From NCBI RefSeq assembly GCF_001267535.1, contig NZ_JRXE01000007.1, forward strand, positions 1 through 44,275: a DNA stretch of 44,275 nt. The letters are read 5' to 3'. This document shows, piece by piece, positions 1-16,621 of this stretch (position 1 is its first letter; each line of letters starts with the position of its first letter). Origin of the DNA: Winslowiella iniecta (GTDB taxonomy: Bacteria; Pseudomonadota; Gammaproteobacteria; Enterobacterales; Enterobacteriaceae). The notes below the pieces were generated by a model that saw only the letters and a program-made list of their open reading frames with translations, did not search any database and had not been told where the DNA came from. The position numbers were made by a program, and so were the translations under genes.

Positions 1-9
1 CCTATGCTC

Positions 10-91
10 AAACTGTAGGGCAGGATCGTCTACCGGGGTGGGGTCAGTCCAAACTGTAGGGCAGGATCGTCTACCGGGGTGGGGGCAGTCC
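10..91. repeat. Two tandem 41-bp direct repeats, probable IS-end remnant
   Basis: Positions 10-50 and 51-91 are the same 41-bp unit with one mismatch (T in copy 1, G in copy 2, seven bases from the unit end). The unit is GC-rich, in contrast to the AT-rich DNA that follows. Read on the minus strand each copy begins TGGACTG(A/C)CCCC, with the leading T from the next base. This resembles the TG...CA termini of IS3-family elements. No transposase is in view, since only nine bases lie to the left. A simple local duplication is the alternative. Confidence 0.55.
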
Positions 92-470
92 AATGTCAGG
101 TATAAGGAATAACTTTGTAGTGTTTCCTTATAACAATCTCAGTTACCAGTCCATGACTTTAATAATTCATTGTGTTGATCAATTTAGGATAAAAATGGAT
201 ATTAATGACTACATCTTATCACATTTATTTCTACAACTTCAGAACGATGGAGTGGAGATAATAAATGATTTTTATCAAGGTTTCAGAGGCTTGCAAGTAT
301 AAATTCGGATTTATGAAAAGTAATTCATTCCAAATTTCAGTAATGAAACGTAAACATTCGAATTGTTCAAAATGTTATGATGCCACCGAGCTAATTCAGT
401 GTCCGAAGAATTTAATTATTACAAGGTTTAATGTTTGAAAATAGTTTTGCAGATATGATTCTAGTCAGTT

Positions 471-1038
471 TTAAAACGGTTTTTGCAAAGCGATAGTATC
501 GTTTAAAATTGATTTGCCAAAGCGTTGAATCATAGTTGCGCTTGTACATAGACTAATTTCAATACCAAGCTCTTCAACTATTTCCTCATAAAGACCGCCT
601 AAATGAAATAAGCTACAGCTGTCCAATGGATCAACCATGATATCTAAATCGCTTTCTTTTGTATCTTCACCACGTGCTACAGAACCAAAAACAAGAGCAT
701 TTTTGACAGGGTATTTTGAAATTATCATCAATGATACGTTTCCTTTTATTTGATAGGATTTCTGATGGCCTGATATTTAGGTGATAAGTTCCAGAACCTA
801 TTCTGTACTCTGAGTGACATTGTCCGCTCAAGGCATCCAAAACATCAGAAACATTCTCTAATGTATGCTCTGGTAATTCGTCATGCAGTGAATCAAAAAG
901 TATCTTATAAGCAAGAAAACCGCCTCTTCTTCCATACATTAAAACTAGCTCACGACACTCACTGTATAACTTCTTCTTATCAGATATATTATTTATTATA
1001 TTCTCAATGCTTTCAGAATATTCGTTGATTGTTTTCAT
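471..1038 (-). pseudogene. Frameshifted nucleotidyltransferase (MNT-type) gene
   Basis: Two overlapping minus-strand frames together make one protein. The first (1038 to 667) opens MKTINEYSES and reads through RPSEILSNKRKRIID, the usual lead-in to the minimal nucleotidyltransferase fold. It then runs into a nonsense tail ending CSCFWFCSTW. The second frame (731 to 471) continues exactly where the fold should: ISKYPVKNALVFGSVARGE, then SDLDIMVD. This supplies the GS-x(9-10)-D-x-D catalytic signature. Restoring one base near 725-735 would join them into a protein of about 188 residues. The family includes MntA-type antitoxins that AMPylate a HEPN toxin, but no HEPN partner is adjacent. The N-terminal 90 residues are not a domain I recognise. 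A natural two-gene overlap (TTG or ATG start near 728-731) or programmed frameshifting is possible but less likely. Confidence 0.7.
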
Positions 1039-1602
1039 TATTGAAATTTCTATATTAGATGATTTGAAATGAATTTTAATTGAAGATCAAATGATCTTAA
1101 TCATGGTTTTACATAAAATCGTGTATGTCCATAATTAAATTTTATTAGTACAAATATTATAAGTAAAGCAGCATTAAAGTTATATTTCTTTAGTATGTAA
1201 TACATTGAAAATATTAGAAAATGTTCTCAAATCGGTTTTTACAAGAGGAGTTATCACTTTTCAGTAAACCGATTGTGCCTCACTGCGAGACCATTTCGCA
1301 GGCGTAAGGGGGACGACTCTCTTGGCGGCGGTGGGTCATTTCACTAATCACGCCTGATTGATTAAATTGTGAGTGTCATTACAAGCCACTGGCACTCACT
1401 GAACATATTAGTTAAATTGACGTGTTGGCCTTCAATATTTCCAGAAGATGTTATGGAACACATGCTTTAAGGATTGAGGTTATTAGATAATTTCCTTTTA
1501 AAATCAGAGTGATAGGTTGATGCTATGATAGGCGCAGAAGCGATCGTTAAGAAAACCATTTATCGGTAACATAACCCAAATTCTTTGAAACGGAGGGCAC
1601 GA
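1039..1602. other. 564-bp gene-free stretch with hairpins upstream of the GTPase operon
   Basis: No convincing ORF lies here. Three inverted repeats are visible. One is AATCGGTTT (1230-1238) with AAACCGATT (1266-1274). The second is a bulged hairpin around TGCGA/TCGCA (1284-1300). The third is a 10-bp stem with one G-T pair, GTGAGTGTCA (1369-1378) with TGGCACTCAC (1390-1399). Base composition is locally GC-rich at 1275-1340 within AT-rich flanks. The stretch must contain the promoter for the operon starting at 1603, but I see no clear -35/-10 pair. A structured leader or a small RNA cannot be excluded. Confidence 0.4.
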
Positions 1603-2955
1603 ATGGGCGCGGTGTTTGTTCATGTTTCGGATATTCACTTTGGTCAAGAAAAAGGTGAACGCATACATATTCATGCTGATGTTAAGCAGCAGTTGATTCT
1701 TGATGCGAAAGAAGTAATTTCATCTATTGCGGGTGGGAGGGCTAACGGGATTTTAGCTACTGGTGATATTGCTCACTCCGGAACGCGGGCTGAATACGAA
1801 GAGGCCGGTATTTGGCTAGATGAACTGGCGAAGAGTATCGGGGTTGAAATTCACCAAGTTCAGATGATACCAGGAAATCATGACCTAGACCGTAGCAAAC
1901 TTTCGTTTTCCGGAAGCCAGATTCTCGATCACATAAGAGCTGGAGGCACTGATGAATATGAAGCTATTCTCAATAATCCTACCGATAGAGCAGCTCTTTT
2001 CGCAAGGTTTGAGGATTATGGACGTTTCAGCTTTGGTTACAACTGTCCACTCAACAACGAGGGTGGATTTGCTTCAGAAATGAAAATCGAACTTGCTCCA
2101 GGACGGTCAATTCGCTTTATAAGATTCAACTCTTCTCTCCTATGTCATGGTGGTGAAAAAGATGAGTGTCCTGAGCTTATGATAGGAGCCAGACAGTTTA
2201 CTATTCCACGGGAAAATGGTGTTGAAAATGTAGTTCTCTGCCATCACCCATTAAATTGGTATAAAGACAGAGAACAGGTTAGAGAATATATACGCAGCCG
2301 TGCTCGAGTTTTCATATCTGGCCATGAACACAACCCAAAAGTTTCTGTTGATAATGTCGAAGAAGGACGTGATGTCCTGATGCTTGCGGCTGGTGCAACA
2401 GCTCCCTTCAAGTCTGACGACACTTATACATTCACTTATAATATTATTGAATTCGATTGGGATGAAGAAATTGACGGATTGTGTGTCACTATACACCCTA
2501 GGGCATGGAATCCTGCTCGTACATCGTTCGAAAGTGACGAAAAGCGTTTGGGGGGAAAACATCCTAAATTCAGATTACAGTCACCATCTTTCAGAAATGC
2601 TGCTGAACTATCTAAATCAACAAAATCCGAACTAGTATTTGAAGAAAATGTTTCAAATTCTCCTTCCTTAGATTCATCACCTGACAACGTGATTGAGAAT
2701 CAATCAAATAACAAAGAAAAATATCTCCTTGATTCTAATGGTTATGAGACTGCCCGTCTTAAATTCTTTAGAGACTTATTTGAAACGGAGAGGTTGCGAA
2801 TTTTAGTCGAATTAGAAGCTCTGCCTTCTGGGTCGAATGACCCTATTACACAAGGGCTGGAAAGAAAGTTTTTTGACATGCTAATTCGGAATGGAAAATT
2901 AGCTATTGTTGAAAGGCTAATCGATAAATTAATTGAAGAACGTAATGGTGGATAA
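1603..2955 (+). CDS. Calcineurin-like metallophosphoesterase with C-terminal helical domain
   Basis: The 450-residue protein carries the complete metallophosphoesterase metal-binding set: D10-x-H12, G54-D55, G91-N-H-D94, H214-H215 and G240-H-E-H243. It should therefore be an active two-metal phosphodiesterase or nuclease. A low-complexity Ser/Asn-rich linker (about 335-375) separates this catalytic part from a C-terminal helical domain (about 380-450). That layout resembles the effector-associated adaptor domains of bacterial conflict systems. The start is ATG 1603, because GGAGG sits seven bases upstream; an in-frame TTG 18 bases earlier has no such site. It is the first gene of the overlapping operon and its stop lies inside the next gene. 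I infer it is the effector of the GTPase-associated system. The substrate is unknown. Confidence 0.85.
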   Translation: MGAVFVHVSDIHFGQEKGERIHIHADVKQQLILDAKEVISSIAGGRANGILATGDIAHSGTRAEYEEAGIWLDELAKSIGVEIHQVQMIPGNHDLDRSKLSFSGSQILDHIRAGGTDEYEAILNNPTDRAALFARFEDYGRFSFGYNCPLNNEGGFASEMKIELAPGRSIRFIRFNSSLLCHGGEKDECPELMIGARQFTIPRENGVENVVLCHHPLNWYKDREQVREYIRSRARVFISGHEHNPKVSVDNVEEGRDVLMLAAGATAPFKSDDTYTFTYNIIEFDWDEEIDGLCVTIHPRAWNPARTSFESDEKRLGGKHPKFRLQSPSFRNAAELSKSTKSELVFEENVSNSPSLDSSPDNVIENQSNNKEKYLLDSNGYETARLKFFRDLFETERLRILVELEALPSGSNDPITQGLERKFFDMLIRNGKLAIVERLIDKLIEERNGG

Positions 2956-3988
2956 GTTAATGAACAATCTTTCGGTTCATATGCGTATTTGTGCAGCAAA
3001 TGTAAGTGACAGTGATGTTGACTCAAGACAAGCAGCAGTTTCAACGCTTGCAACGAGTTGGAAGAAAGAAAAAGGGTTGTTAAATATTGTCTCTACTGTG
3101 GTTGATATTGCACAGTCTCTTGGAGGAGATGGTTTTCCATCATTAGCTTTAGGGGAAAAAGTTCAAAAAGCAATTCAGAAGAAATCATCTTCTTATCTTT
3201 ATGAAGAGCGTCCATTAGATGTAAGCGTATGCGCCGGTATGGCAGCGCTTTCTGTTATTAATAATGCTCCTTCAACAAACGTATGGACGATTCAGGATGT
3301 TTATGCAACTGCACTTTGGTCTGCGCTGTCTTTCCAACCTGTTTTGGAAGCTGAACGTAGGGAGAACCTCCGCCAAGAGATTTTGAAGGCTGCTTTTAGG
3401 AGGAGCATTACGTCAGCCAATCTTGCGAGAGAGCGAAGAAATGTGCCAGACCCATTAGGTCTTGAAATCACGATTAACGAGAGTAATGAGGTAGATAGTA
3501 ATTTCAATGCTGCTATAGCTAGCACGATCGAGTCATTGCGTCACAATGCTACTTTAGACCGTGAAGAGCTGGATTTCTTATGGTGGGCGCAATTGGCGCG
3601 GAGCCGTTTATTGAAAAGGCAGTTATCAAGTATTTCCGAACCTACTAGAATTGTTGCTTCTGGAATTGAGGGGGCCGAGATTCTTCGCCGCCTTCCTTGC
3701 GATGTACATCGCGAAATAGTTTTACGAACATTAGACGACAACCCAGAACTTAGCTTAGAAGAGCTGCTCTTGGAAATCGCTGAGGATCGAGAACAATTAT
3801 GTAGCGTCCTCACTGATAGTTATATCATTGATTATCCTACAATATTCCCTCTTCTCAATTCTATATGTACCAACAATATATCTATGCCTGGTGCTTATGT
3901 GAAACGACCTGTTTCAGAGTGGGGAGAACGTGCTCTGCTAGAAGCTTCTTTTGTCAGAATGATGAGACATGGGGTAAGTAAGATATGA
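2945..3988 (+). CDS. GASH-like all-helical protein of GTPase-associated system
   Basis: This 347-residue protein has no catalytic motif or membrane segment that I can see. It is rich in Leu, Glu and Ala and appears mostly helical throughout. Its position between a metallophosphoesterase and paired GTPases, together with its size, matches the family named GTPase-associated system helical protein (GASH). That family is predicted to be a structural or adaptor part of conflict operons. ATG 2945 overlaps the upstream gene by 11 bases, and ATG 2960 is an alternative start. The 3' end overlaps the next start as ATGA. The tight coupling suggests fixed stoichiometry with its neighbours. The family assignment rests on context and general sequence character, so it is moderately sure; the biochemical role is unknown. 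Confidence 0.7.
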   Translation: MVDKLMNNLSVHMRICAANVSDSDVDSRQAAVSTLATSWKKEKGLLNIVSTVVDIAQSLGGDGFPSLALGEKVQKAIQKKSSSYLYEERPLDVSVCAGMAALSVINNAPSTNVWTIQDVYATALWSALSFQPVLEAERRENLRQEILKAAFRRSITSANLARERRNVPDPLGLEITINESNEVDSNFNAAIASTIESLRHNATLDREELDFLWWAQLARSRLLKRQLSSISEPTRIVASGIEGAEILRRLPCDVHREIVLRTLDDNPELSLEELLLEIAEDREQLCSVLTDSYIIDYPTIFPLLNSICTNNISMPGAYVKRPVSEWGERALLEASFVRMMRHGVSKI

Positions 3989-4944
3989 GTGGATCTGATC
4001 CTTTAGAAGGTGAATCAGCAGTAAGCGCAGGAGGAGATTCAGGTGATTACGAAGATGTAATTTCGAAATCTCTTGAAGATCTTAGTGCGCCCGTTCTATC
4101 TCAACCAACGCACATGAATGCGTTGACCTCGAGCCGTACTCTTGGCTTGGAAGATCTAAATAACTTAATGGGATCGAGATATGTCAATGTGGTCGGCATT
4201 CTTGGTGATCCTGAATCTGGGAAAACTGCGTGCCTCGCAAGTCTTTACTTGCTTATTTCTCATGCAAAATTGGTTGGCTGGACTTTTGCAGATAGCCGAA
4301 GCTTGACTGCATTTGAAGATATCGCGCGAGGTGCTCGTGACTGGAATCAGGGGCAGGTACCTGAACAAATGACGGTACATACTGAGTTATCAGATGATCA
4401 TAGGCCGGGTTTTCTTCATCTCCGGCTTAAAAGAGTTTCAGATGGTCGTGTTGTTGACTTTGCTCTTCCAGATATTCCAGGAGAGTGGACACAGGCTTTG
4501 GTCACTTCGGCAATATCTGAGCGGTTAGAGTATATGAAATCTGCTGAAGTTATTTGGATTGTTGTTGATGGCCGTAGCCTCGCAGACATTGAGAAACGTC
4601 AAGGTCTGATTGTGAGAATTGGGCAGTTGGCTGCTCGTCTCAATACTATGTTTGAGGGGCAAATTCCTCGAATGCTTATCGTGGTTACACACCATGATAC
4701 GCACGTTATCGACAGTGGAGTGTCGCACCGATTGAGCAAAGAACTTCAAAGACGTGGAACAAATGCTGAGATAATTAGCGTAGCCCCTTTCTCTAATCAA
4801 CCAGATGATGTGAAGGCTGGGCATGGCTTAGCTGAGTTGATTGACTGTACTGTTGGTAAACCACTCGAAAGGCCAATATTCTGGAAATCTTCTGAAGTGG
4901 TTCAGAATGAGCGCTCTTATCTTAGATACAGGAGAAATTTATGA
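3985..4944 (+). CDS. P-loop GTPase of a paired (double-GTPase) system, first member
   Basis: The 319-residue protein contains a P-loop GDPESGKT (residues 74-81), a switch II motif D163-I-P-G166 after hydrophobic residues, and T235-H-H-D238 after a hydrophobic strand, where GTPases normally have NKxD. These support a TRAFAC-type GTPase with a divergent base-recognition motif. The first 70 residues are acidic and probably disordered. There is no membrane segment. The start overlaps the previous stop (ATGA), and the stop overlaps the next GTPase in the same way. Two neighbouring GTPases with an all-helical and a GAP1-like partner are the hallmark of the predicted double-GTPase conflict systems. 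It is likely a nucleotide-dependent switch controlling the effector. Nucleotide specificity is not proven. Confidence 0.8.
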   Translation: MSGSDPLEGESAVSAGGDSGDYEDVISKSLEDLSAPVLSQPTHMNALTSSRTLGLEDLNNLMGSRYVNVVGILGDPESGKTACLASLYLLISHAKLVGWTFADSRSLTAFEDIARGARDWNQGQVPEQMTVHTELSDDHRPGFLHLRLKRVSDGRVVDFALPDIPGEWTQALVTSAISERLEYMKSAEVIWIVVDGRSLADIEKRQGLIVRIGQLAARLNTMFEGQIPRMLIVVTHHDTHVIDSGVSHRLSKELQRRGTNAEIISVAPFSNQPDDVKAGHGLAELIDCTVGKPLERPIFWKSSEVVQNERSYLRYRRNL

Positions 4945-5783
4945 CTCGATCAATAATACTCCTTGGCGGCCCTGATTCTGGAAAGACCAACTACATTGGG
5001 CGTCTCTGGCATGCCTTAGACCGTGGCACTGGAGCACTACGTGCAATTGGGCAACCGGATGATATTAATTTTGTTCTTGAGGTAGCTGACCATCTATACC
5101 AAGGTGGATTTGCTCCACGAACCGAACACAGTGATATGCGACGTGATTTTGAAGTAATTGTCGCTGCTAAAGAAGATGGGCCTCAATCCAAAGTCATTGT
5201 TCCAGATGTTTCTGGAGAACTTTGGCGTAATGCCGTTATTGACAATGAAATTTCTCCTGAGTGGGTTGAAGAATTAAAACAAGCTGATGCCGCATTGCTT
5301 TTTGTTCGTGTGGGATCTGATCAAGATGTTCGCCCACTTGATTGGGTAACATCAAGAAACTACCTTGAGCAGATTGATGAGTCAGATGATCAAGGTCTTC
5401 CTACACAGGTTATGTTGTGCGAGTTGATACATTTTTTGGAAGACTCTCTAGCTCTGCGCGAAGATGGAGGACTCCCACGCCTATCAGTAGTAGTATCAGC
5501 TTGGGATTTAGTTGATTCAGATAAATTTTCTCAAGGGCCTGTTGCTTACTTAGAACGCGAGTATCCTTTAGTTGCGGGCAGATTAGCTGATGTAGATTCG
5601 CTGAATGTCCAGGTGTTTGGTCTTAGTGTTGTTGGTGGTGATTTAAAACATGATGCCGACTATCGACAAACTTTTCTTGAACAAGGCATCGATGAACAAG
5701 GATGGGTAACTGCAAATGTTGGGGGGGAATGGGTGAAATATAATGATGTAACGCTTCCTATATCTTGGGCTGTGGGGCTTTGA
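4941..5783 (+). CDS. P-loop GTPase of a paired (double-GTPase) system, second member
   Basis: This 280-residue protein starts almost directly with its P-loop, GGPDSGKT at residues 9-16. It has a switch II motif D89-V-S-G92 and S186-A-W-D189 in the place of NKxD. It is clearly related to the preceding GTPase (same order of motifs, PD(I/V)xGE after the third strand) but lacks its acidic N-terminal extension. The pair therefore looks like an ancient duplication kept as separate chains, which could form an asymmetric dimer. The start is the ATGA overlap with the upstream stop. The following gene begins four bases after its stop. A role in switching or assembling the conflict complex is inferred from context. 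Confidence 0.8.
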   Translation: MTRSIILLGGPDSGKTNYIGRLWHALDRGTGALRAIGQPDDINFVLEVADHLYQGGFAPRTEHSDMRRDFEVIVAAKEDGPQSKVIVPDVSGELWRNAVIDNEISPEWVEELKQADAALLFVRVGSDQDVRPLDWVTSRNYLEQIDESDDQGLPTQVMLCELIHFLEDSLALREDGGLPRLSVVVSAWDLVDSDKFSQGPVAYLEREYPLVAGRLADVDSLNVQVFGLSVVGGDLKHDADYRQTFLEQGIDEQGWVTANVGGEWVKYNDVTLPISWAVGL

Positions 5784-5787
5784 AACT

Positions 5788-8406
5788 GTGATAACCATTG
5801 ATGTACAAATTCATGGATATCGCAAAGGCCATCAACTTCTTGGTTCATCAATTGTATTAGCCAAAGATGACCAGGCTGTAATCGATCGTCTGTCTGATGT
5901 CGCTGGTCCCTTACGTCCTAAAGAACAATTTATACCTTATTTAACTACCTACCCTCTTCCTAGTGGCGATTACTACGTTATTGCTAGAACATGGCAGGAT
6001 TTAAGCGTTCCGCGTGCAGGTTGCGTTCGGACTAAAAGTTTACTAGTGAATATTCAAAGTTGGTCTAATAAAGCGATTCTTGCAACTTTACTTAGATTAA
6101 TTGAATCTAAAGATTTGCCTCTTGAAGAGGATGCAGTTCGTTATGATTTAATTGAGCAGCATGATGATATACTTCCTGAAGTATCCAGATTCAATGCAAA
6201 CGAGTTCCTGGAGGCACTATTTCTTGAAGAGTCAAAGCCAATTGTAGTTTTTGATGCTCCAGACCCTGAGGAAATTGCTGTACACCTTCTCACGGCCTTA
6301 TGGCCCAGCTTACGTAAGCGTTTTTCGCTCTCAACTTTTGCTTTGTCACCGCGTAAAATTGATGGGCGCGATCTTGATATTGTTTTCGCTCCCTCAAATG
6401 CCAAAGCTAGATTTTCTGATTGGGTTGGGCGGCGTATCGATGGGCGCTCTTCTCAAATTGAGCGTCATCGTTGGACTAAAGAATTAGTAACGCGAGTCTT
6501 TAAAGAATCAGCACCTAAGCTATTATCTGCTGATAAAATTAACCTGTTGGGAAGTAATGATGAAGCTAACCCTGCGGCTTTGCGTATTGCATTGATGTGG
6601 GATGAGCTAATTAGCAGTATGGACGTCGACCCAACGTCTGTATTGAGTTTATTGGATATTGTTAATTCTGGAAGAGTCAACAGTGTAGAGGCGATAAGAC
6701 AGTTAGAGCCAAAATTAATTGAATCTATCGGCAACGCTGGGACTGTCTTGACTTCTAACGATGCGTGGAACTTTGTAAGCTCAGTATCTAGAAAGTTGAA
6801 AGGAAAAAATGTTGCTTCTGGGACAATTGCTCTCGAAAAACTCGTTAGACATCTTTCTGAAAAATCAGGTGACGGCTTAGCTAAACTACTGAATCAGCCT
6901 GACCCTGATAGTGTCATCAAGGCCTTGATCCCTAGTATCGCTAAAGGCCTTGGCGATGCTCCTGAGGTGCTGATAAAACGAACGCTGAACAATATTCCTG
7001 TAGAAATTTTTGCTCATTTGATTGAGGAGGGAAAGGAGCTTGCAAAATTCGTAGCTAAAGATGATGAGCTTATTTACAAGGTGAGAATCGTTTTAAGCGA
7101 AATTGACAAATCTCTTGCATATAATACAGGAAAAGCACTTCTTCCATTTATCGTAGACGATAGCCAACTCCCACTTGCAATACCTATCATTCGTAGCCTC
7201 AATTTAAATGAAGTAATAAAAGAGATGTTATGGCTCCGAGATGTTAATGGTTTAAAGTCAGAGTCTCTTTGTGCTGAATTAATTAATCGAGCACGCCAAG
7301 TTGATGGCATTAATGCTGCTCGAGACTTAATAATTACGTCTAATTCTGAAGTTGATTCAGATAAATTGTTATCATTGACTGTCAATCCTGTTAAGAATGA
7401 TGTGGTCTGGCTAATTAATGATGGTCGCCTTTCAAGCGAAAGCTCTGCATCGCTACTTGCTGGTATATTAAGGCGCGCAGATGATGAGCAGTTTAAGGAT
7501 TTATTGTCGGACCGTGAGATTGGTTGTTGCATTGTTTCTCGACTTAAAGAAGATTCCATTGATTTGCTTATCCGAGCCGTAAACAAAGCGGAATTACCAA
7601 TTGACACCTATGTTAAAGTCATTAATTTGGTTTTGCCTAAAGTAGATGGCGCTAGTAAGAGAGAAATCGCTGAAAATGCGATAAAAAGGTGTTTGCGTAA
7701 TAGACTCGATGGTGATGAAAGCGAGGTTATTAAAAGTTTTATAAATGTTTCGAAAGATCGAGTTAATTTTGAAGAGATAATTCGAGAGGGATTGAACATT
7801 TGCGTAGCTGCTGATATTGCAAGTCGGAATTTAACTATATTCGATGATTTGAAAGGTGAAATACGTAACAATATTATTGTAAGGATAAATGTTATCGCTC
7901 TTGTATTATTAGAGCGAAAGATAATGGATTTAACTGAGGAAGCATACGATGCGTGTGCAAGATTAATGTTTGATGCAGATCATTTATCGAGTAATTCATT
8001 GTCAGAAGCAGCTGGTGTTCTTATGCCTTCTCTAATGCTTGCCCGTAATAAACCGGTGTCACTGATGGTTGCTGCGCTATTTCCAGTTGTTTACCGTGAG
8101 CTAGCTAAGTCAGATACAGTGCCTGAACAATTTAATTCAATTTTCTTTTTTCTGGATTGGGACCGTTGTAAGACCGCTCGTAAAGAGATTACACGAGCTT
8201 TTGTCCTTTCAAAATGGCGACCTGGAGATTTGGCTCTTACCGCATGTCGATGTGGTGATGCAACAAAGATTATTAAACAGCTTTCAAAAACGTATAGAGG
8301 TAAAGAGTACATTTTGAAAATTGCAAAAGATCTTAATAATTATAATGTTGAGACTAGAGATGCTATTAACCCAATAATAAAAGAGATTATTAATGACTGG
8401 GACTAG
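5788..8406 (+). CDS. GAP1-like GTPase-associated protein (N1-type head, helical body)
   Basis: The 872-residue protein opens with a compact domain (about 1-130) containing the phrases IHGYRKGHQLLGSS, YPLPSGDYYVIARTW and RAGCVRTKSLL. I recognise these as the GTPase-associated protein 1 N-terminal domain. The remainder (about 150-870) is long, Leu/Ile-rich and apparently all-helical, with no catalytic motif. It could act as a repeat-like scaffold or target-sensing surface. Translation begins at GTG 5788, four bases after the upstream stop, and no better ATG fits the conserved start of the domain. It closes the overlapping gene block. As the longest and probably least conserved part of the system it is a reasonable candidate for the sensor, which is inference. 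Confidence 0.8.
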   Translation: MITIDVQIHGYRKGHQLLGSSIVLAKDDQAVIDRLSDVAGPLRPKEQFIPYLTTYPLPSGDYYVIARTWQDLSVPRAGCVRTKSLLVNIQSWSNKAILATLLRLIESKDLPLEEDAVRYDLIEQHDDILPEVSRFNANEFLEALFLEESKPIVVFDAPDPEEIAVHLLTALWPSLRKRFSLSTFALSPRKIDGRDLDIVFAPSNAKARFSDWVGRRIDGRSSQIERHRWTKELVTRVFKESAPKLLSADKINLLGSNDEANPAALRIALMWDELISSMDVDPTSVLSLLDIVNSGRVNSVEAIRQLEPKLIESIGNAGTVLTSNDAWNFVSSVSRKLKGKNVASGTIALEKLVRHLSEKSGDGLAKLLNQPDPDSVIKALIPSIAKGLGDAPEVLIKRTLNNIPVEIFAHLIEEGKELAKFVAKDDELIYKVRIVLSEIDKSLAYNTGKALLPFIVDDSQLPLAIPIIRSLNLNEVIKEMLWLRDVNGLKSESLCAELINRARQVDGINAARDLIITSNSEVDSDKLLSLTVNPVKNDVVWLINDGRLSSESSASLLAGILRRADDEQFKDLLSDREIGCCIVSRLKEDSIDLLIRAVNKAELPIDTYVKVINLVLPKVDGASKREIAENAIKRCLRNRLDGDESEVIKSFINVSKDRVNFEEIIREGLNICVAADIASRNLTIFDDLKGEIRNNIIVRINVIALVLLERKIMDLTEEAYDACARLMFDADHLSSNSLSEAAGVLMPSLMLARNKPVSLMVAALFPVVYRELAKSDTVPEQFNSIFFFLDWDRCKTARKEITRAFVLSKWRPGDLALTACRCGDATKIIKQLSKTYRGKEYILKIAKDLNNYNVETRDAINPIIKEIINDWD

Positions 8407-8456
8407 CTAATGTTGTTAAGTCCCTGTGTTCAATTCTAATTTAAAGGATGATTGAT

Positions 8457-9983
8457 ATGGCCGTAAATGCACGTGCAAAAACAATAACAGGCCAAGTTCT
8501 CAAATCAATAACAGTGAATAAGCTAAAATGTATTAATAACATGAATTCACTTAGTTTTACCCCCCATCCTCTGACTGCTATTTTGGGACCAAATGGCAGC
8601 GGAAAATCAACGATTCTTCATGCTATCGCCGGAATTTATCGCCCTGAAGAAGGCCAGTCAGGGGAAGACCATAAACTCATGGACTTCTTCCCTAGGAGTC
8701 CGGATGCAGAATGGAATGGCAGTGAGTTTCATATCAACCATACCTTTCGGAGAGGAAGGGATTTAATCGAAAACGATGAGAAGACCTACGGAAAAGCAGA
8801 TGCTGTTGGTTCTCGATGGGTTCAAATTTATGCTCGAAGACCATTAAGAGAAGTTTATTATCTTGGAATTGAAAAATGTGTTCCAATGATTGAATCTGAA
8901 AAGAAAAATAACATTAAGTACGAGACATCAAATGTCTCAAGTGACTTCATTAATTTGTTATTGCGGAAGTCCTCACATGTTCTCAATAAACCCTATACAT
9001 CCTTCAATCATCATAAGCAACCGAACGGTAAGTTTTTCATAGGTGTTGAAGCTTCTGGGATCAGATATTCATCTCTTAGTATGAGCGCAGGTGAGAAAAA
9101 AGTGTTCATGATACTCGAGGCTGTTTTTAAAGCTGAGAAAAATGCACTTATTTTAATCGATGAACTTGACCTATTACTTCATGATATGGCTTTGAATAAC
9201 CTAATTTCTGTAATACATGAAAGGGCTTCAGAGAAGAACTTGCAGGTTATATTTACAACCCATAGAGAGTCCATAATATCACTTTCAGGTATGGTAAACA
9301 TCCGTCATGTCCTAAGCCTCGCAGATAGATCATTTTGTTTTGAAGAGACAAAGCCTGATGCCATCAATCGCCTAACGGGGGTTAAAGTTACATCAATCGA
9401 AATATATGTTGAAGATGGTGTTGCCGAAGCAATGGTGAAGAAAGTATGCTCTTCAATGAAGGGAACGAAATTTATCAAAGTTATCAAATATGGTGCGGCG
9501 GTTAACGCATTTACCATATTAGCAGGCACACTGTTACGTGGGGACGACTTAGATCATACATTATTTGTATTGGACGGTGATGTCATAAAAACGGAAGAGG
9601 AAAAAATCAACGCAATCCAAAAAGTATTAACAGGGAATGATCAGAGGTCTGTCGGTCTACGTGAACAGGCACTTAGAAAAATTTTCCAGTTTAGATTGCC
9701 TGAGGGCAAGAACCCGGAACAGTGCCTCCATGACTTAATTATTCAAATAGATACTAATGAATTAGACGAGGGTTCTATTGAAATCATTGAAGCAGCAAGA
9801 AATATTCATTTTAGAGATGATTCACATGACTATCTCACTCAGATAATCGATAGTCTGGGGGTTGAACGGTCAGTTGGTTTAACACGTATCGTTGATCTCG
9901 CGGCGAAGCATCAGGAATGGCAAAACATTATTGCCGATGTAGAGGGTTGGCTGCGTCCAGAGATTGAAAGGTTACGTGAATAG
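8457..9983 (+). CDS. OLD-like ABC/AAA ATPase with C-terminal TOPRIM-like domain
   Basis: The N-terminal two thirds form an SMC/ABC-like ATPase. Walker A is GPNGSGKS (44-51), the signature motif is SAGEKK (210-215), Walker B is LILIDE (231-236), and the switch histidine H269 lies in FTTHRES. The C-terminal part has E319 in IEIYVEDG, then D373-G-D375 in FVLDGDV, the acidic layout of a TOPRIM nuclease. This architecture is that of OLD-family and Gabija GajA-type defence nucleases; no GajB-like helicase follows. Start ATG 8457 has AGGA eight bases upstream, while the ATG at 8448 abuts that site. It lies 50 bases after the GAP1-like gene, so it may be cotranscribed with it or be a separate defence module. 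Length is 508 residues. Confidence 0.75.
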   Translation: MAVNARAKTITGQVLKSITVNKLKCINNMNSLSFTPHPLTAILGPNGSGKSTILHAIAGIYRPEEGQSGEDHKLMDFFPRSPDAEWNGSEFHINHTFRRGRDLIENDEKTYGKADAVGSRWVQIYARRPLREVYYLGIEKCVPMIESEKKNNIKYETSNVSSDFINLLLRKSSHVLNKPYTSFNHHKQPNGKFFIGVEASGIRYSSLSMSAGEKKVFMILEAVFKAEKNALILIDELDLLLHDMALNNLISVIHERASEKNLQVIFTTHRESIISLSGMVNIRHVLSLADRSFCFEETKPDAINRLTGVKVTSIEIYVEDGVAEAMVKKVCSSMKGTKFIKVIKYGAAVNAFTILAGTLLRGDDLDHTLFVLDGDVIKTEEEKINAIQKVLTGNDQRSVGLREQALRKIFQFRLPEGKNPEQCLHDLIIQIDTNELDEGSIEIIEAARNIHFRDDSHDYLTQIIDSLGVERSVGLTRIVDLAAKHQEWQNIIADVEGWLRPEIERLRE

Positions 9984-10113
9984 CTTCTTTAAACGCTATT
10001 GTTTTTAGGCGAGAAACAACAGAAAAAACAGCAGGTTGTGTAATTCTCTACAATGTTTATTCTCCCAAAAATCTCTTGTGTTCAGAGTTTATTATTCCAA
10101 GACAGATGTGAAA

Positions 10114-10167
10114 GATAAAGAATAAATCATCAAATCCTGTTCATCGTCCTTTGATTTATTCTTTATC
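10114..10167. repeat. Perfect 16-bp inverted repeat between island and rluF
   Basis: GATAAAGAATAAATCA at 10114-10129 is exactly repeated in inverse at 10152-10167, with a 22-base loop. Pairing can continue past a three-base bulge (GTG with CAC). It lies eight bases past the rluF stop codon and downstream of the ATPase gene, between converging genes. It may serve as a transcription terminator for either side. It also marks the point where AT-rich island DNA gives way to core chromosome. The stem is AT-rich, so termination strength is uncertain. Confidence 0.6.
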
Positions 10168-10175
10168 ACACCCGC

Positions 10176-11048
10176 TTAACGTCCTTTCTTCTTCCGTCCC
10201 GGCTGGTTAAAGCGCTTGCGCGAAGCCGCGTTGCCTTCCGGCTTTTCGGCGATTTTTGGCCGGTTAATACCCGGTTTTTTCGCGGCAGCTTGTTTAGCTG
10301 GCGCTTTCTTCGTCGGTTTTTCTTCGGACGATGAGTTTTCAATCAGCTTAAATAACTCAATCAGTTCATCGTCGGTCAAATCGCGCCACTCGCCCAGCGG
10401 CAAGCCTTTCAGATTGACGTTCATGATGCGCGTGCGCTCAAGTTTGGTGACTTCATAGCCAAAGTGTTTACACATGCGGCGAATCTGGCGGTTAAGCCCT
10501 TGCACCAGAGTGATACGAAACACAAACGGTGCTTCTTTCTTCACTTTGCATTTTTTGGTCACCGTGCCGAGCATCGGGACACCGGCGCTCATGCCCTGAA
10601 TAAATTCGTCCGTCACCAGCTTGTTGACCGTGACCACATACTCTTTCTCGTGATTGTTCCCGGCACGTAAGATCTTATTGACCAGATCGCCGTGGTTAGT
10701 CAGGAAAATCAGCCCCTGGGAGTCTTTATCCAGGCGTCCGATGGGAAACACGCGCTTGCTGTGGTTGACGAAATCGCTGATGTTGTCGCGTTCACCTTCT
10801 TCCATGGTTGTGATAATGCCAACCGGCTTATTGAGTGCAATAAGTACCAGATCTTCTTCATCACGCGGCTCGATAAGCTGACCATTTACTTTCACCACAT
10901 CGCCCGCAAACACCTGTGCGCCAACGGTGGCTCGCTTGCCGTTAATAAAGACATTGCCCTGTTCGATATAGCGATCGGCATCACGACGAGAACAGATTCC
11001 GCTCTCGCTAATGTATTTGTTAAGACGAATGGATGGGTTGGTCAGCAT
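10176..11048 (-). CDS. rluF: 23S rRNA pseudouridine synthase RluF
   Basis: The 290-residue protein is nearly identical in pattern to E. coli RluF, which converts U2604 of 23S rRNA (and U35 of tRNA-Tyr) to pseudouridine. An S4 RNA-binding domain occupies about residues 6-65 ([15 protein letters not shown]). The catalytic RsuA-type domain contains GRLD with catalytic Asp107, and [13 protein letters not shown] follows. The Lys/Ala-rich basic tail ends in GRKKKGR as in E. coli. GGAGG lies upstream of ATG 11048. This gene marks the return to core chromosome after the AT-rich island. Confidence 0.95.
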
Positions 11049-13893: not shown

Positions 13894-15888
13894 ATGAGTC
13901 ATATTGCACCAGATAAACCGGTTAAACGCAGTCATATTTATCCCCCCGTTTTCTACACTTCGGCACTGCTGATCTTTCTTCTGGTGGGATTTGCAGCACT
14001 TTTCCCTGAGCTGGCAGACCGTCAGCTTAAAGCATTGCAGGGCAGTCTGTTTGCCAATGCCAGTTGGTTTTACATTCTCGCGGTCGCCTTAATCTTATTA
14101 AGTGTCTCCTATCTCGGCTTGTCGCGTTACGGCAATATCAAGCTAGGGCCGGACCATGCTCAACCGGATTTCAGCTATCTCTCGTGGTTTGCCATGCTGT
14201 TTTCCGCTGGTATGGGGATCGGGCTAATGTTTTTTGGGGTGGCCGAGCCGGTCATGCACTATCTGGCTCCGCCGGTTGGCACCCCCGAAACCGTTGAAGC
14301 CGCAAAAGAAGCTATGCGTATTACCTTCTTCCACTGGGGGCTGCATGCGTGGGGAATTTACGCCATTGTGGCGTTGATTCTGGCCTTTTTCAGCTATCGA
14401 CACGGCCTGCCACTGAGACTGCGCTCAGCGCTGTATCCGATTATCGGCGATCGCATTAACGGTCCGATTGGCCATGCGGTCGATATCTTTGCGGTGATTG
14501 GCACTGTGCTGGGTGTGGCGACCTCATTAGGCTACGGCGTTTTACAGGTTAATGCCGGGCTGAACCATCTGTTTGGTTTGCCGATTAATCAGACCGTGCA
14601 GGTGATTCTGATTGTCGTTATCACTGCGATGGCGACCCTTTCGGTGGTTTCCGGGCTGGATAAAGGCATCCGCATTCTCTCCGAACTTAATCTGGGGCTG
14701 GCGGTGCTGCTGCTGGTTCTGGTGGGTACGCTTGGTCCAACGGTGCTGTTGCTGAAATCCTTTGTGGAAAATACCGGCGGCTATCTTTCTGAGATCATCA
14801 GTAAAACCTTTAATCTGTATGCCTATGAGCCAAAGTCTAACAGCTGGCTGGGAGGATGGACGCTGCTCTACTGGGGATGGTGGCTTTCCTGGTCACCGTT
14901 TGTCGGCATGTTTATCGCACGGGTTTCTCGTGGACGAACCATCCGCGAGTTCGTTACCGGCGTTCTGTTTGTCCCGGCAGGTTTTACGCTGTTATGGATG
15001 ACCTTTTTTGGTAACAGTGCCATCTGGTTAATCATGGAGCAGGGCGCACGTGACCTGGCCAATGTGGTGCAGAACGATCAGGCGCTGGCGTTGTTTAACT
15101 TCCTCGAACACTTCCCGTTCGGCAATATCCTTTCGTTTATCGCGATGGCGATGGTGGTGGTATTTTTCGTCACCTCGGCTGACTCGGGTGCGATGGTCGT
15201 GGATACGCTGGCGGCAGACGGTACCGAGAATACGCCGGTCTGGCAGCGTATCTTCTGGGCCGGATTAATGGGCGTGGTGGCGATCACGCTGCTGCTGGCG
15301 GGGGGAATGAGTGCGCTGCAAACCGTAACCATTGCCAGTGCTTTGCCATTCTCAATTATTCTGCTGGTCTCGATCTATGGACTGTTTAAAGCGCTGCGCG
15401 TTGACGCTTATAAACGCGACAGTCAGCAGATGACCACTATCGCACCGACGGCGGCACGTAACCCAATTTCATGGCAACAGCGTCTGCGCAAAATTGCTTA
15501 TTTCCCGAAGCGCTCTAACGTCCGGCGTTTTATGAGTGAAGTGATTCAGCCAGCGATGGAAATGGTTAAAGCGGAGCTGGCAAAGCAGGGGACGCTCTCT
15601 TCAACCAATGACAGCGCCGATGACCGTATTCACTTTGAAGTGAGTATGGGTGATGAGCTGAATTTTGTGTATGAAGTGCGCCTGCGCGCCTATTTGCAAC
15701 CGGCGTTTGCGCTGGCTGGCCTGAAAGATGAAGAGCGCGATGAGGAATATAAATATTATCGTGCTGAAGTTTATCTGAAGGAAGGCGGTCAGGATTACGA
15801 TGTAATGAGCTGGACGCAGGAACAGATTATTCACGATATTCTCGACCAGTATGAGAAGCATCTGCACTTCCTGCACCTGGTGCGTTAA
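13894..15888 (+). CDS. betT: High-affinity choline transporter BetT (BCCT family)
   Basis: A 664-residue, 12-helix inner-membrane protein. The BCCT hallmark is visible in the Trp-rich helix WTLLYWGWWLSWSPFVGMF, with AGMGIGLMFFGVAEP in helix 3. The long hydrophilic C-terminal tail (about residues 510-664) matches the osmosensing tail of E. coli BetT and sets it apart from short BCCT carriers. BetT imports choline using the proton gradient, and choline is then oxidised to the osmoprotectant glycine betaine. The usual neighbours betI, betB and betA are absent here, so the oxidation genes must be elsewhere if present. Confidence 0.92.
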   Translation: MSHIAPDKPVKRSHIYPPVFYTSALLIFLLVGFAALFPELADRQLKALQGSLFANASWFYILAVALILLSVSYLGLSRYGNIKLGPDHAQPDFSYLSWFAMLFSAGMGIGLMFFGVAEPVMHYLAPPVGTPETVEAAKEAMRITFFHWGLHAWGIYAIVALILAFFSYRHGLPLRLRSALYPIIGDRINGPIGHAVDIFAVIGTVLGVATSLGYGVLQVNAGLNHLFGLPINQTVQVILIVVITAMATLSVVSGLDKGIRILSELNLGLAVLLLVLVGTLGPTVLLLKSFVENTGGYLSEIISKTFNLYAYEPKSNSWLGGWTLLYWGWWLSWSPFVGMFIARVSRGRTIREFVTGVLFVPAGFTLLWMTFFGNSAIWLIMEQGARDLANVVQNDQALALFNFLEHFPFGNILSFIAMAMVVVFFVTSADSGAMVVDTLAADGTENTPVWQRIFWAGLMGVVAITLLLAGGMSALQTVTIASALPFSIILLVSIYGLFKALRVDAYKRDSQQMTTIAPTAARNPISWQQRLRKIAYFPKRSNVRRFMSEVIQPAMEMVKAELAKQGTLSSTNDSADDRIHFEVSMGDELNFVYEVRLRAYLQPAFALAGLKDEERDEEYKYYRAEVYLKEGGQDYDVMSWTQEQIIHDILDQYEKHLHFLHLVR

Positions 15889-15898
15889 TCGCTATCAC

Positions 15899-15920
15899 AT
15901 CGCCCGCGTCAGCGGGCGAT
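15899..15920. terminator. Hairpin between converging betT and TetR genes
   Basis: ATCGCCCGC (15899-15907), loop GTCA, GCGGGCGAT (15912-15920): a 9-bp GC-rich stem. There is no T-run on either side, so it may be a weak or Rho-assisted bidirectional terminator. Confidence 0.55.
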
Positions 15921-15922
15921 GA

Positions 15923-16621
15923 TCACTGTGGGCGAAGGCCATTCAACAACAGTGCAACCACGTGTTTCGCCAGCTGGCTGGCATCGGGCTGATTTCCCTG
16001 CGCCTGACTTAACACCCGGGCAGACGCCACCGGCAAAAAGGTTAGCCCGAACAACGAGATAAAAATCAGCTCCGGGTTGATATCGGCATTCAGTTTTCCC
16101 TCTTCCTGCCAGCGAACCAGGCACTGCAAAGACGCCTTTCTCTGGCTATCGCCGTAATGCTCTTCCATACGCTTCTTCAGCATGCCGCTGTCGCTGATAA
16201 TCTCGCGTACCCACAGTGGTGCAAACCACGCATGCTTAAAAGAGATATCAATAAACTGTTCGGCAAGCTGCGTCAGTGTGGTGACCGGATCGGCATCGGG
16301 ATGCTGGAACAGATTGCGGAAGGAGGCGCGGATCGGCAAAAACCGCTCTTCTATCAGCACATCGAGCAGCTGTTCACGGGTATTAAAGTAGTAATGCAGC
16401 ATGGCTGGCGTCACACCCGCTTCGCGGGCGATCAGGGTTAATGGCGTATCGGCAATTCCCTGGCGAGCAAACAGCGTCAGTGCGGTTTCAAGCAGCAACG
16501 CCCGACGATCCGCACCTTTTGCGCCACCGGCAGGCCGACCCGGTTTACGTGGTGAAATACCTGAATTATCAGAGGGTTCAGCTTTCTTCTCAGTGGGTTT
16601 TACGCTTTTTTTACTCGCCAT
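15923..16621 (-). CDS. TetR/AcrR-family repressor, likely of the adjacent MFS pump
   Basis: The 232-residue protein has a basic, disordered N-terminus (1-38) and then a TetR helix-turn-helix: ALLLETALTLFARQGIADTPLTLIAREAGVTPAMLHYYF (about 42-80). The C-terminal half is the variable ligand-binding bundle. It is transcribed divergently from the MFS exporter at 16707. The 85-bp gap contains a near-perfect palindrome suitable for binding its dimer. By standard logic it represses the pump and itself until an inducer binds. The inducer cannot be deduced. Confidence 0.88.
   Translation of the reverse strand: MASKKSVKPTEKKAEPSDNSGISPRKPGRPAGGAKGADRRALLLETALTLFARQGIADTPLTLIAREAGVTPAMLHYYFNTREQLLDVLIEERFLPIRASFRNLFQHPDADPVTTLTQLAEQFIDISFKHAWFAPLWVREIISDSGMLKKRMEEHYGDSQRKASLQCLVRWQEEGKLNADINPELIFISLFGLTFLPVASARVLSQAQGNQPDASQLAKHVVALLLNGLRPQ

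Follow-up and report, generated by a model that had tools for sequence, protein, structure and literature searches.

A mobile five-gene operon of the predicted GAP1-N1 double-GTPase class in Winslowiella iniecta, with a fixed GAAD-phosphoesterase and a ribbon-less GTPase

What kind of machinery is encoded by a compact block of five genes in Winslowiella iniecta, and could it act against invaders? The block lies in a 44,275-nt stretch of contig NZ_JRXE01000007.1 (assembly GCF_001267535.1), which we analysed as a whole and refer to as the window. A first-pass annotation had read the genes as an undescribed GTPase-centred defence system with members of the DO-GTPase, GASH and GAP1 families. These family calls were borne out by Pfam profile matches, which were, in gene order, Metallophos plus GAAD, GASH, DO-GTPase2, DO-GTPase1 and GAP1-N1. 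The claim of novelty, however, did not hold: judged by its domains, the block is the GAP1-N1 GTPase-centric conflict subsystem that was predicted from sequence by Kaur, Burroughs, Iyer and Aravind in 2020 (PMC7159879) and is thus already described in print. The parts listed in that paper are GASH, GAP1 and a pair of DO-GTPases whose Walker B motif contains a glutamate, one of the pair bearing an N-terminal zinc ribbon. Among the effector domains, a calcineurin-type phosphoesterase is named as the most frequent, often coupled through GAAD; the coupling in such systems runs through GAAD, EAD1 or a fusion to GAP1. The authors also propose a GTPase-switch logic and stress that the effectors vary.

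Our favoured answer, which we regard as probable, is that the operon encodes a mobile anti-invader system (probably directed against phages or plasmids) of the GAP1-N1 double-GTPase kind, in which a phosphodiesterase is gated by GTP. With the system of Kaur et al. the window shares the two DO-GTPases, GASH, GAP1-N1 and the GAAD-linked calcineurin-type phosphoesterase. It differs in that its DO-GTPase2 lacks the zinc ribbon, the GAP1-M Pfam model stays below its cut-off, and the effector is fixed in the window's clade instead of being variable. Two features go beyond what the first-pass annotation had noted, namely that gene 1 carries a GAAD adaptor and that the product of gene 3 has no ribbon.

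The features are listed in Table 1. The tightly packed arrangement in an AT-rich island that had been described earlier was confirmed as regards the frames, the ATGA junctions of genes 2/3 and 3/4 and the 4-base gap between genes 4 and 5, but the 11-base overlap of genes 1 and 2 is unlikely. That overlap results from the ATG at 2945, which is a possible start of GASH. A start at 2960, leaving a 4-base gap, appears more likely because GGTGGA sits just upstream of it and because the Met encoded there falls in an invariant alignment column, where the relatives have their initial residue (their starts were partly chosen by script). Chance or a frame artefact was ruled out as the origin of the block by the five proteins' own Pfam matches (the best of each between E 1e-19 and 1e-84) and by the kept order and strand.

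Table 1. Features of the operon and neighbouring genes. Positions refer to the window or, where a locus is named, to that locus; lengths are in amino acids (aa).
Feature	Position	Strand	Length	Basis
Metallophosphoesterase (MPE) effector, calcineurin-like, residues 5-245	1603..2955	+	450	PF00149, E 1.4e-12
GAAD adaptor, C-terminal, residues 381-442 of the first protein	2743..2928	+		PF19976, E 1e-19
GASH, all-helical protein	2960..3988 (ATG 2945 possible)	+	342 (347 from 2945)	PF19994, E 1.8e-27
DO-GTPase2 without N-terminal zinc ribbon; P-loop GDPESGKT, Walker B DIPGE, THHD	3985..4944	+	319	PF19993, E 2.4e-74
DO-GTPase1; P-loop GGPDSGKT, Walker B DVSGE, SAWD	4941..5783	+	280	PF19975, E 1.2e-84
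GAP1 protein, GAP1-N1 head plus alpha-solenoid	5788..8406	+	872	PF20012, E 2.7e-33
GAP1-N1 domain, residues 4-104	5797..6099	+		PF20012
GAP1 alpha-solenoid, residues 248-871	6529..8400	+		model, look-alikes, conservation profile
ATPase neighbour, outside the core	8448..9983	+		similar to candidate HEC-04 (PDLC04149, E 3.9e-41) and OLD-type proteins
DISARM-type DrmA and DrmB, right after the operon (Acidiphilium)	L018 12705-18166			flank scan
GajA (Gabija)	L028 and L047			flank scan
PDC-S25	L031 and L040			flank scan
PDC-M62A	L048			flank scan
IetS-like gene, partial	L008			flank scan
AriA/Old-like protein	L028			flank scan

To place the operon among its relatives we used 48 fetched loci (L007-L054), which comprise 6 of 18 matching plasmid records, 40 genome-contig loci and 2 viral-contig loci. 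In 40 of the 48, all five genes were present with order and strand unchanged. Five of the remaining eight are cut by contig ends (L015, L017, L019, L045 and L053), and the other three hold an orphan GAP1 (L007), a GAP1 that is broken and lies close to the end of a contig (L050) and a system of another type (L052). Among the 40 complete loci are near-copies (L009 and L037 of L008, L022 of L021, L034 of L032), with GAP1 proteins alike at 861-880 of 879-881 positions. Surveys of the class and the phylum added five GAP1-N1 genomes beside the own genome; the phosphoesterase gene comes first in two (L099 and L100), one (L101) has an effector coupled through EAD1, and two (L006 and L056) are cut at contig ends.

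The first gene travels with the other four. GAAD and Metallophos were found together in all 37 scanned first-gene proteins, the window included, and the MPE motif positions D10, H12, D55, N92, H93, D94, H214, H215, G240, H241, E242 and H243 were invariant in 35 of 35. The pairwise distance matrices of the five proteins correlated with r of 0.81-0.92 (35 loci, window included). From these three results taken together, the effector is co-inherited with the core in the window's clade, and what is elsewhere a variable effector is fixed there. Two models for longer proteins also matched the MPE part: NCBIfam DS8_antiphage, by its N-terminal portion (E 6.1e-36; 123.6 bits, where the cut-off is 790), and PADLOC PDC-S60 (E 1.3e-19). 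What they share with the window protein is a related MPE domain, but they are much longer (994 and 1027 positions), and the window protein falls far below the DS8 cut-off. PADLOC-DB gave three partial matches for the phosphoesterase and, at E ≤ 0.1, none for the four other proteins.

Each of the two DO-GTPases retains the GxxxxGK[ST] loop as well as DxxGE throughout the set (35 of 35, window included). The [ST]xxD motif of DO-GTPase2 was likewise present in 35 of 35 and the xAWD motif of DO-GTPase1 in 34 of 35 (L028 deviates); the Asp of these motifs presumably confers guanine specificity. A four-Cys ribbon pattern was found in all 42 other DO-GTPase2 copies that have the relevant part, near-copies excluded. 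These were 36 of 36 clade relatives, L049 and five of five further systems (L052, L055, L099, L100 and L101), L017 and L019 being cut before that part and so left outside the count; four near-copies carry the pattern as well. In the window protein, residues 1-75 contain no Cys, and the starting MSGS passes directly to DP, where the relative L013 from Massilia horti, with 53% GAP1 identity, has the ribbon in between. As its DO-GTPase2 is without the ribbon, the window operon is classed as a variant of the GAP1-N1 system. Wholesale decay is not evident, since the frame is otherwise intact and the distances from the window to its sub-clade resemble those within the sub-clade (0.41 and 0.35 for MPE, 0.66 and 0.61 for GASH, 0.49 and 0.50 for DO-GTPase2, 0.40 and 0.40 for DO-GTPase1, 0.88 and 0.77 for GAP1); we see one unusual apparent loss, that of the zinc ribbon.

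GASH and the GAP1 solenoid were the most variable parts of the system. The GAP1-N1 head was present in 35 of 35 proteins of the clade set, and the conservation profile showed the solenoid part to be less conserved than the head. The AlphaFold2 model of the window GAP1 (mean predicted local distance difference test score 89.0, predicted template modelling score 0.57) was made up of helices alone from residue 248 to 871; in it, a small head is followed by an extended alpha-solenoid. Its structural look-alikes were solenoids of the HEAT/ARM type. In the GAP1-N1 class the head is expected to be followed by GAP1-M and GAP1-C domains. The GAP1-M Pfam model scored 14.3 bits on the window protein (cut-off 24) and reached E ≤ 0.01 in 1 of 35 clade GAP1 proteins; in the predicted structure the middle is ordered and the C-terminal part is helical.

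The same order of GASH, DO-GTPase2, DO-GTPase1 and GAP1 was seen in three EAD1-type systems (L055 from another genome of the genus, L052 and L101). In these, however, the effector follows GAP1 and consists of a caspase with EAD1 (two loci) or a PNP-type phosphorylase with EAD1 (one locus), and no GAAD phosphoesterase was seen in the three. EAD1 was also detected on the GAP1 protein of L101, the one of the three that was scanned, and none of the 35 GAP1 proteins from the clade of the window matched it at E ≤ 0.01, which suggests that the adaptor type and the GAP1 tail may go together. In L101 (2641-12122) the GAP1-N1 system with the PNP-type EAD1 effector follows TniB/TniQ-type genes and a Mu-transposase-C protein and looks like transposon cargo. 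As for the features of GAP1-N2 systems, neither GAP1-N2 nor FNIII matched any of the five proteins (Pfam, E ≤ 1).

Is the operon then a resident of these genomes or a visitor? With the own genome included in every count, 2 of the 37 genus genomes surveyed contain GAP1-N1, as do 3 of 369 genomes at class level and 4 of 398 at phylum level. The second genus genome, G008, has an EAD1-type system. Of the 18 plasmid records that match GAP1, eight do so over at least 80% of its length and 15 are typed conjugative. On a GAP1 tree of 41 rows, five of them without a class, the class labels change nine times, with a minimum possible of 3 and a shuffled mean of 16.4. The GC fraction is 0.398 for positions 1-10175 of the window and 0.528 for 10176-44275. 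The AT-rich stretch that holds the operon ends at a pseudouridine-synthase-like gene, which we take to be rluF. Its protein was matched in 37 of 37 genus genomes (G009 with distant paralogues only). The flank was fetched for five of the 36 other genus genomes, and in these the DNA similarity to the window begins at 10175-10180, with no part of the operon beside the pseudouridine-synthase-like gene. The genes beside it differ among the five, except that L072 and L075 agree. Stable core genes were therefore ruled out by the patchy presence, the genus flanks without the operon and the class changes on the tree; the operon has a patchy distribution, is mobile and sits on an island gained by horizontal transfer.

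Several observations touch on the borders of the mobile copies. The repeat at window positions 1-95 has seven occurrences in the own genome, some located at or close to the termini of contigs C7, C14 and C2 and the others internal to further contigs, and a small repeat of window 2-93 was also present in L073, one of the five genus flanks. The repeat may have broken the assembly, leaving the left border of the island unseen. On a viral contig (L054, 1-16979), the operon adjoins genes for a lambda-like tail fibre J protein, an endolysin, a spanin and a methylase; it begins at base 1 of the contig and the border of the element is thus unsure. On a Pseudomonas aeruginosa plasmid (L007, 10765-14616), an orphan open GAP1 stands directly behind a transposase of the IS3 insertion sequence family, and the four other operon genes were not found within the fetched stretch.

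The neighbourhood was tested in 20 of the 40 complete loci, with three genes on each side according to our own gene calling and a control region on the same contig. We scanned 114 of 115 called flank genes (the cut gene L030:1-2021 was dropped) and 118 of 119 called control genes (a cut frame of 2,929 residues was dropped). In L047 an antisense call (15659-15940) was swapped by hand for an OLD-like gene, which favours the defence reading. At E ≤ 1e-10 the flank genes matched 151 PADLOC families and the control genes 42, these counts not being mutually independent. Among the 25 Pfam families listed for the flanks were phage integrases (4), AAA_15 and AAA_21 (4 each), SIR2_2 (2), transposase domains and MFS (3), while metabolism, transport and type VI secretion accounted for most of the 25 domain families listed for the controls. 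At least 7 of the 20 examined loci had defence or candidate defence genes no more than three genes away (six without L047). The gene-by-gene scan behind this count covered ten flank genes of eight loci, chosen by us after the first scan, and nine of them matched at E ≤ 1e-20; the figure is thus a minimum, with no control value to set beside it. The earlier expectation of a biological-conflict context thus agrees with what we found: the proteins belong to the families named, and their homologues are patchy, mobile and, in these loci, beside defence genes.

As to how such a system could work, we infer the following course of sensing, switching, signalling, substrate and outcome. GAP1, with its conserved head on a long solenoid, and GASH would form the scaffold and likely the sensor, on which the two DO-GTPases would be docked through GAP1 as a paired GTP switch. 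When the GAP1 solenoid (or GASH) meets a component of the invader, the GTPase pair would change its nucleotide state, and the complex would then release or activate the GAAD-tethered metallophosphoesterase. The enzyme would cut phosphodiesters, most likely in nucleic acid and less likely in a nucleotide signal, and so stop the invader or the infected cell. A stronger version holds that in the window's clade the GAAD-phosphoesterase is no exchangeable effector but a fifth core subunit, obligate and co-evolving with the rest, in a five-protein GTP-gated immune complex that senses through the GAP1 solenoid and GASH, and that the window version works without the otherwise universal zinc ribbon; we offer it tentatively, as possible but doubtful.

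A number of results weigh against the anti-invader reading. The substrate of the metallophosphoesterase is the weakest step of the proposed mechanism: the nearest solved chains by sequence were weak matches (2dxl and 2xmo at E of about 0.005, SbcD/Mre11 at 0.19-0.24). As GAP1 was unmatched in 50,697 phage records, we only infer phage as a target, and the E. coli collection gave no DNA match. The control regions had PADLOC matches too (AbiEii with E 3.7e-93 and several at 1e-20 to 1e-43). The class labels are clustered on the GAP1 tree, nine or fewer changes being reached in none of 200 shuffles, so that transfer between classes, though it occurs, is not rampant. The ribbon-less window copy could be altered or weak, and the literature searched contained no experimental test of a GAP1-N1 system.

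Alternatively, the metallophosphoesterase of the same machine might serve in signalling, breaking down or trimming a nucleotide messenger of cyclic or linear form, and not as a killer that cuts nucleic acid. This would be in line with the best, if weak, solved-structure matches, the phosphohydrolase 2dxl and LMO2642, which we take to be a glycerophosphodiesterase and a cyclic-nucleotide phosphodiesterase, respectively. A nucleotidyl phosphodiesterase was also predicted by Kaur et al. (PMC7159879). The PADLOC model named 'Effector, Endonuclease', however, matches the MPE as well (E 1.9e-13), and according to Pfam the five-gene block contains neither a nucleotide-making enzyme nor a pore protein, so we hold a messenger-trimming role to be unlikely. 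A horizontally spread module for stress or physiology, for example for envelope or translation stress signalling, that came to lie on defence islands by happenstance seems more improbable still. The lack of a defence experiment in the literature searched and the rarity of the family in the phylum would suit it, and the neighbours on an island can be unrelated; yet defence and integrase genes are commoner in the flanks than in the same-contig controls (with the sampling caveats given above), and other GAP1-N1 systems have EAD1-linked caspase or phosphorylase effectors. The window copy might also be a decaying relic that no longer works for want of the ribbon. The presence of the ribbon in every other copy counted points in this direction, as do the orphan and broken copies elsewhere (L007 behind an insertion sequence, L050). 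Against it stand the five open frames, the intact motifs and the distances near those within the sub-clade, and we consider decay somewhat unlikely. The anti-invader system thus remains the reading that we prefer.

Two further frames accompany the operon in the window. The ATPase gene (Table 1) begins 41 bases after GAP1 and could be co-transcribed with the operon; it was rejected as a sixth component, only two partial matches being found among the open reading frames of L007-L054. At 471-1038 on the reverse strand lies a frame for an MntA-like nucleotidyltransferase (NCBIfam, 35.3 bits, below the cut-off of 60). An upstream frame overlaps with it and, towards its end, seems to repeat the motif in a different reading frame; the two are possibly one frameshifted gene.

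What is new here is the effector fixed within a clade, the model of GAP1 as a head with a solenoid, the patchy and mobile occurrence with defence neighbours and the DO-GTPase2 without a ribbon. GAP1-N1 is a predicted class of GTP-switch immunity, for which we found no experiment in the literature searched. A five-gene operon as compact as this one, whose effector is fixed, whose motifs are intact and which has defence neighbours, would be well suited to a first test. The window copy, which naturally has no ribbon, would offer a ready contrast for the role of the zinc ribbon.

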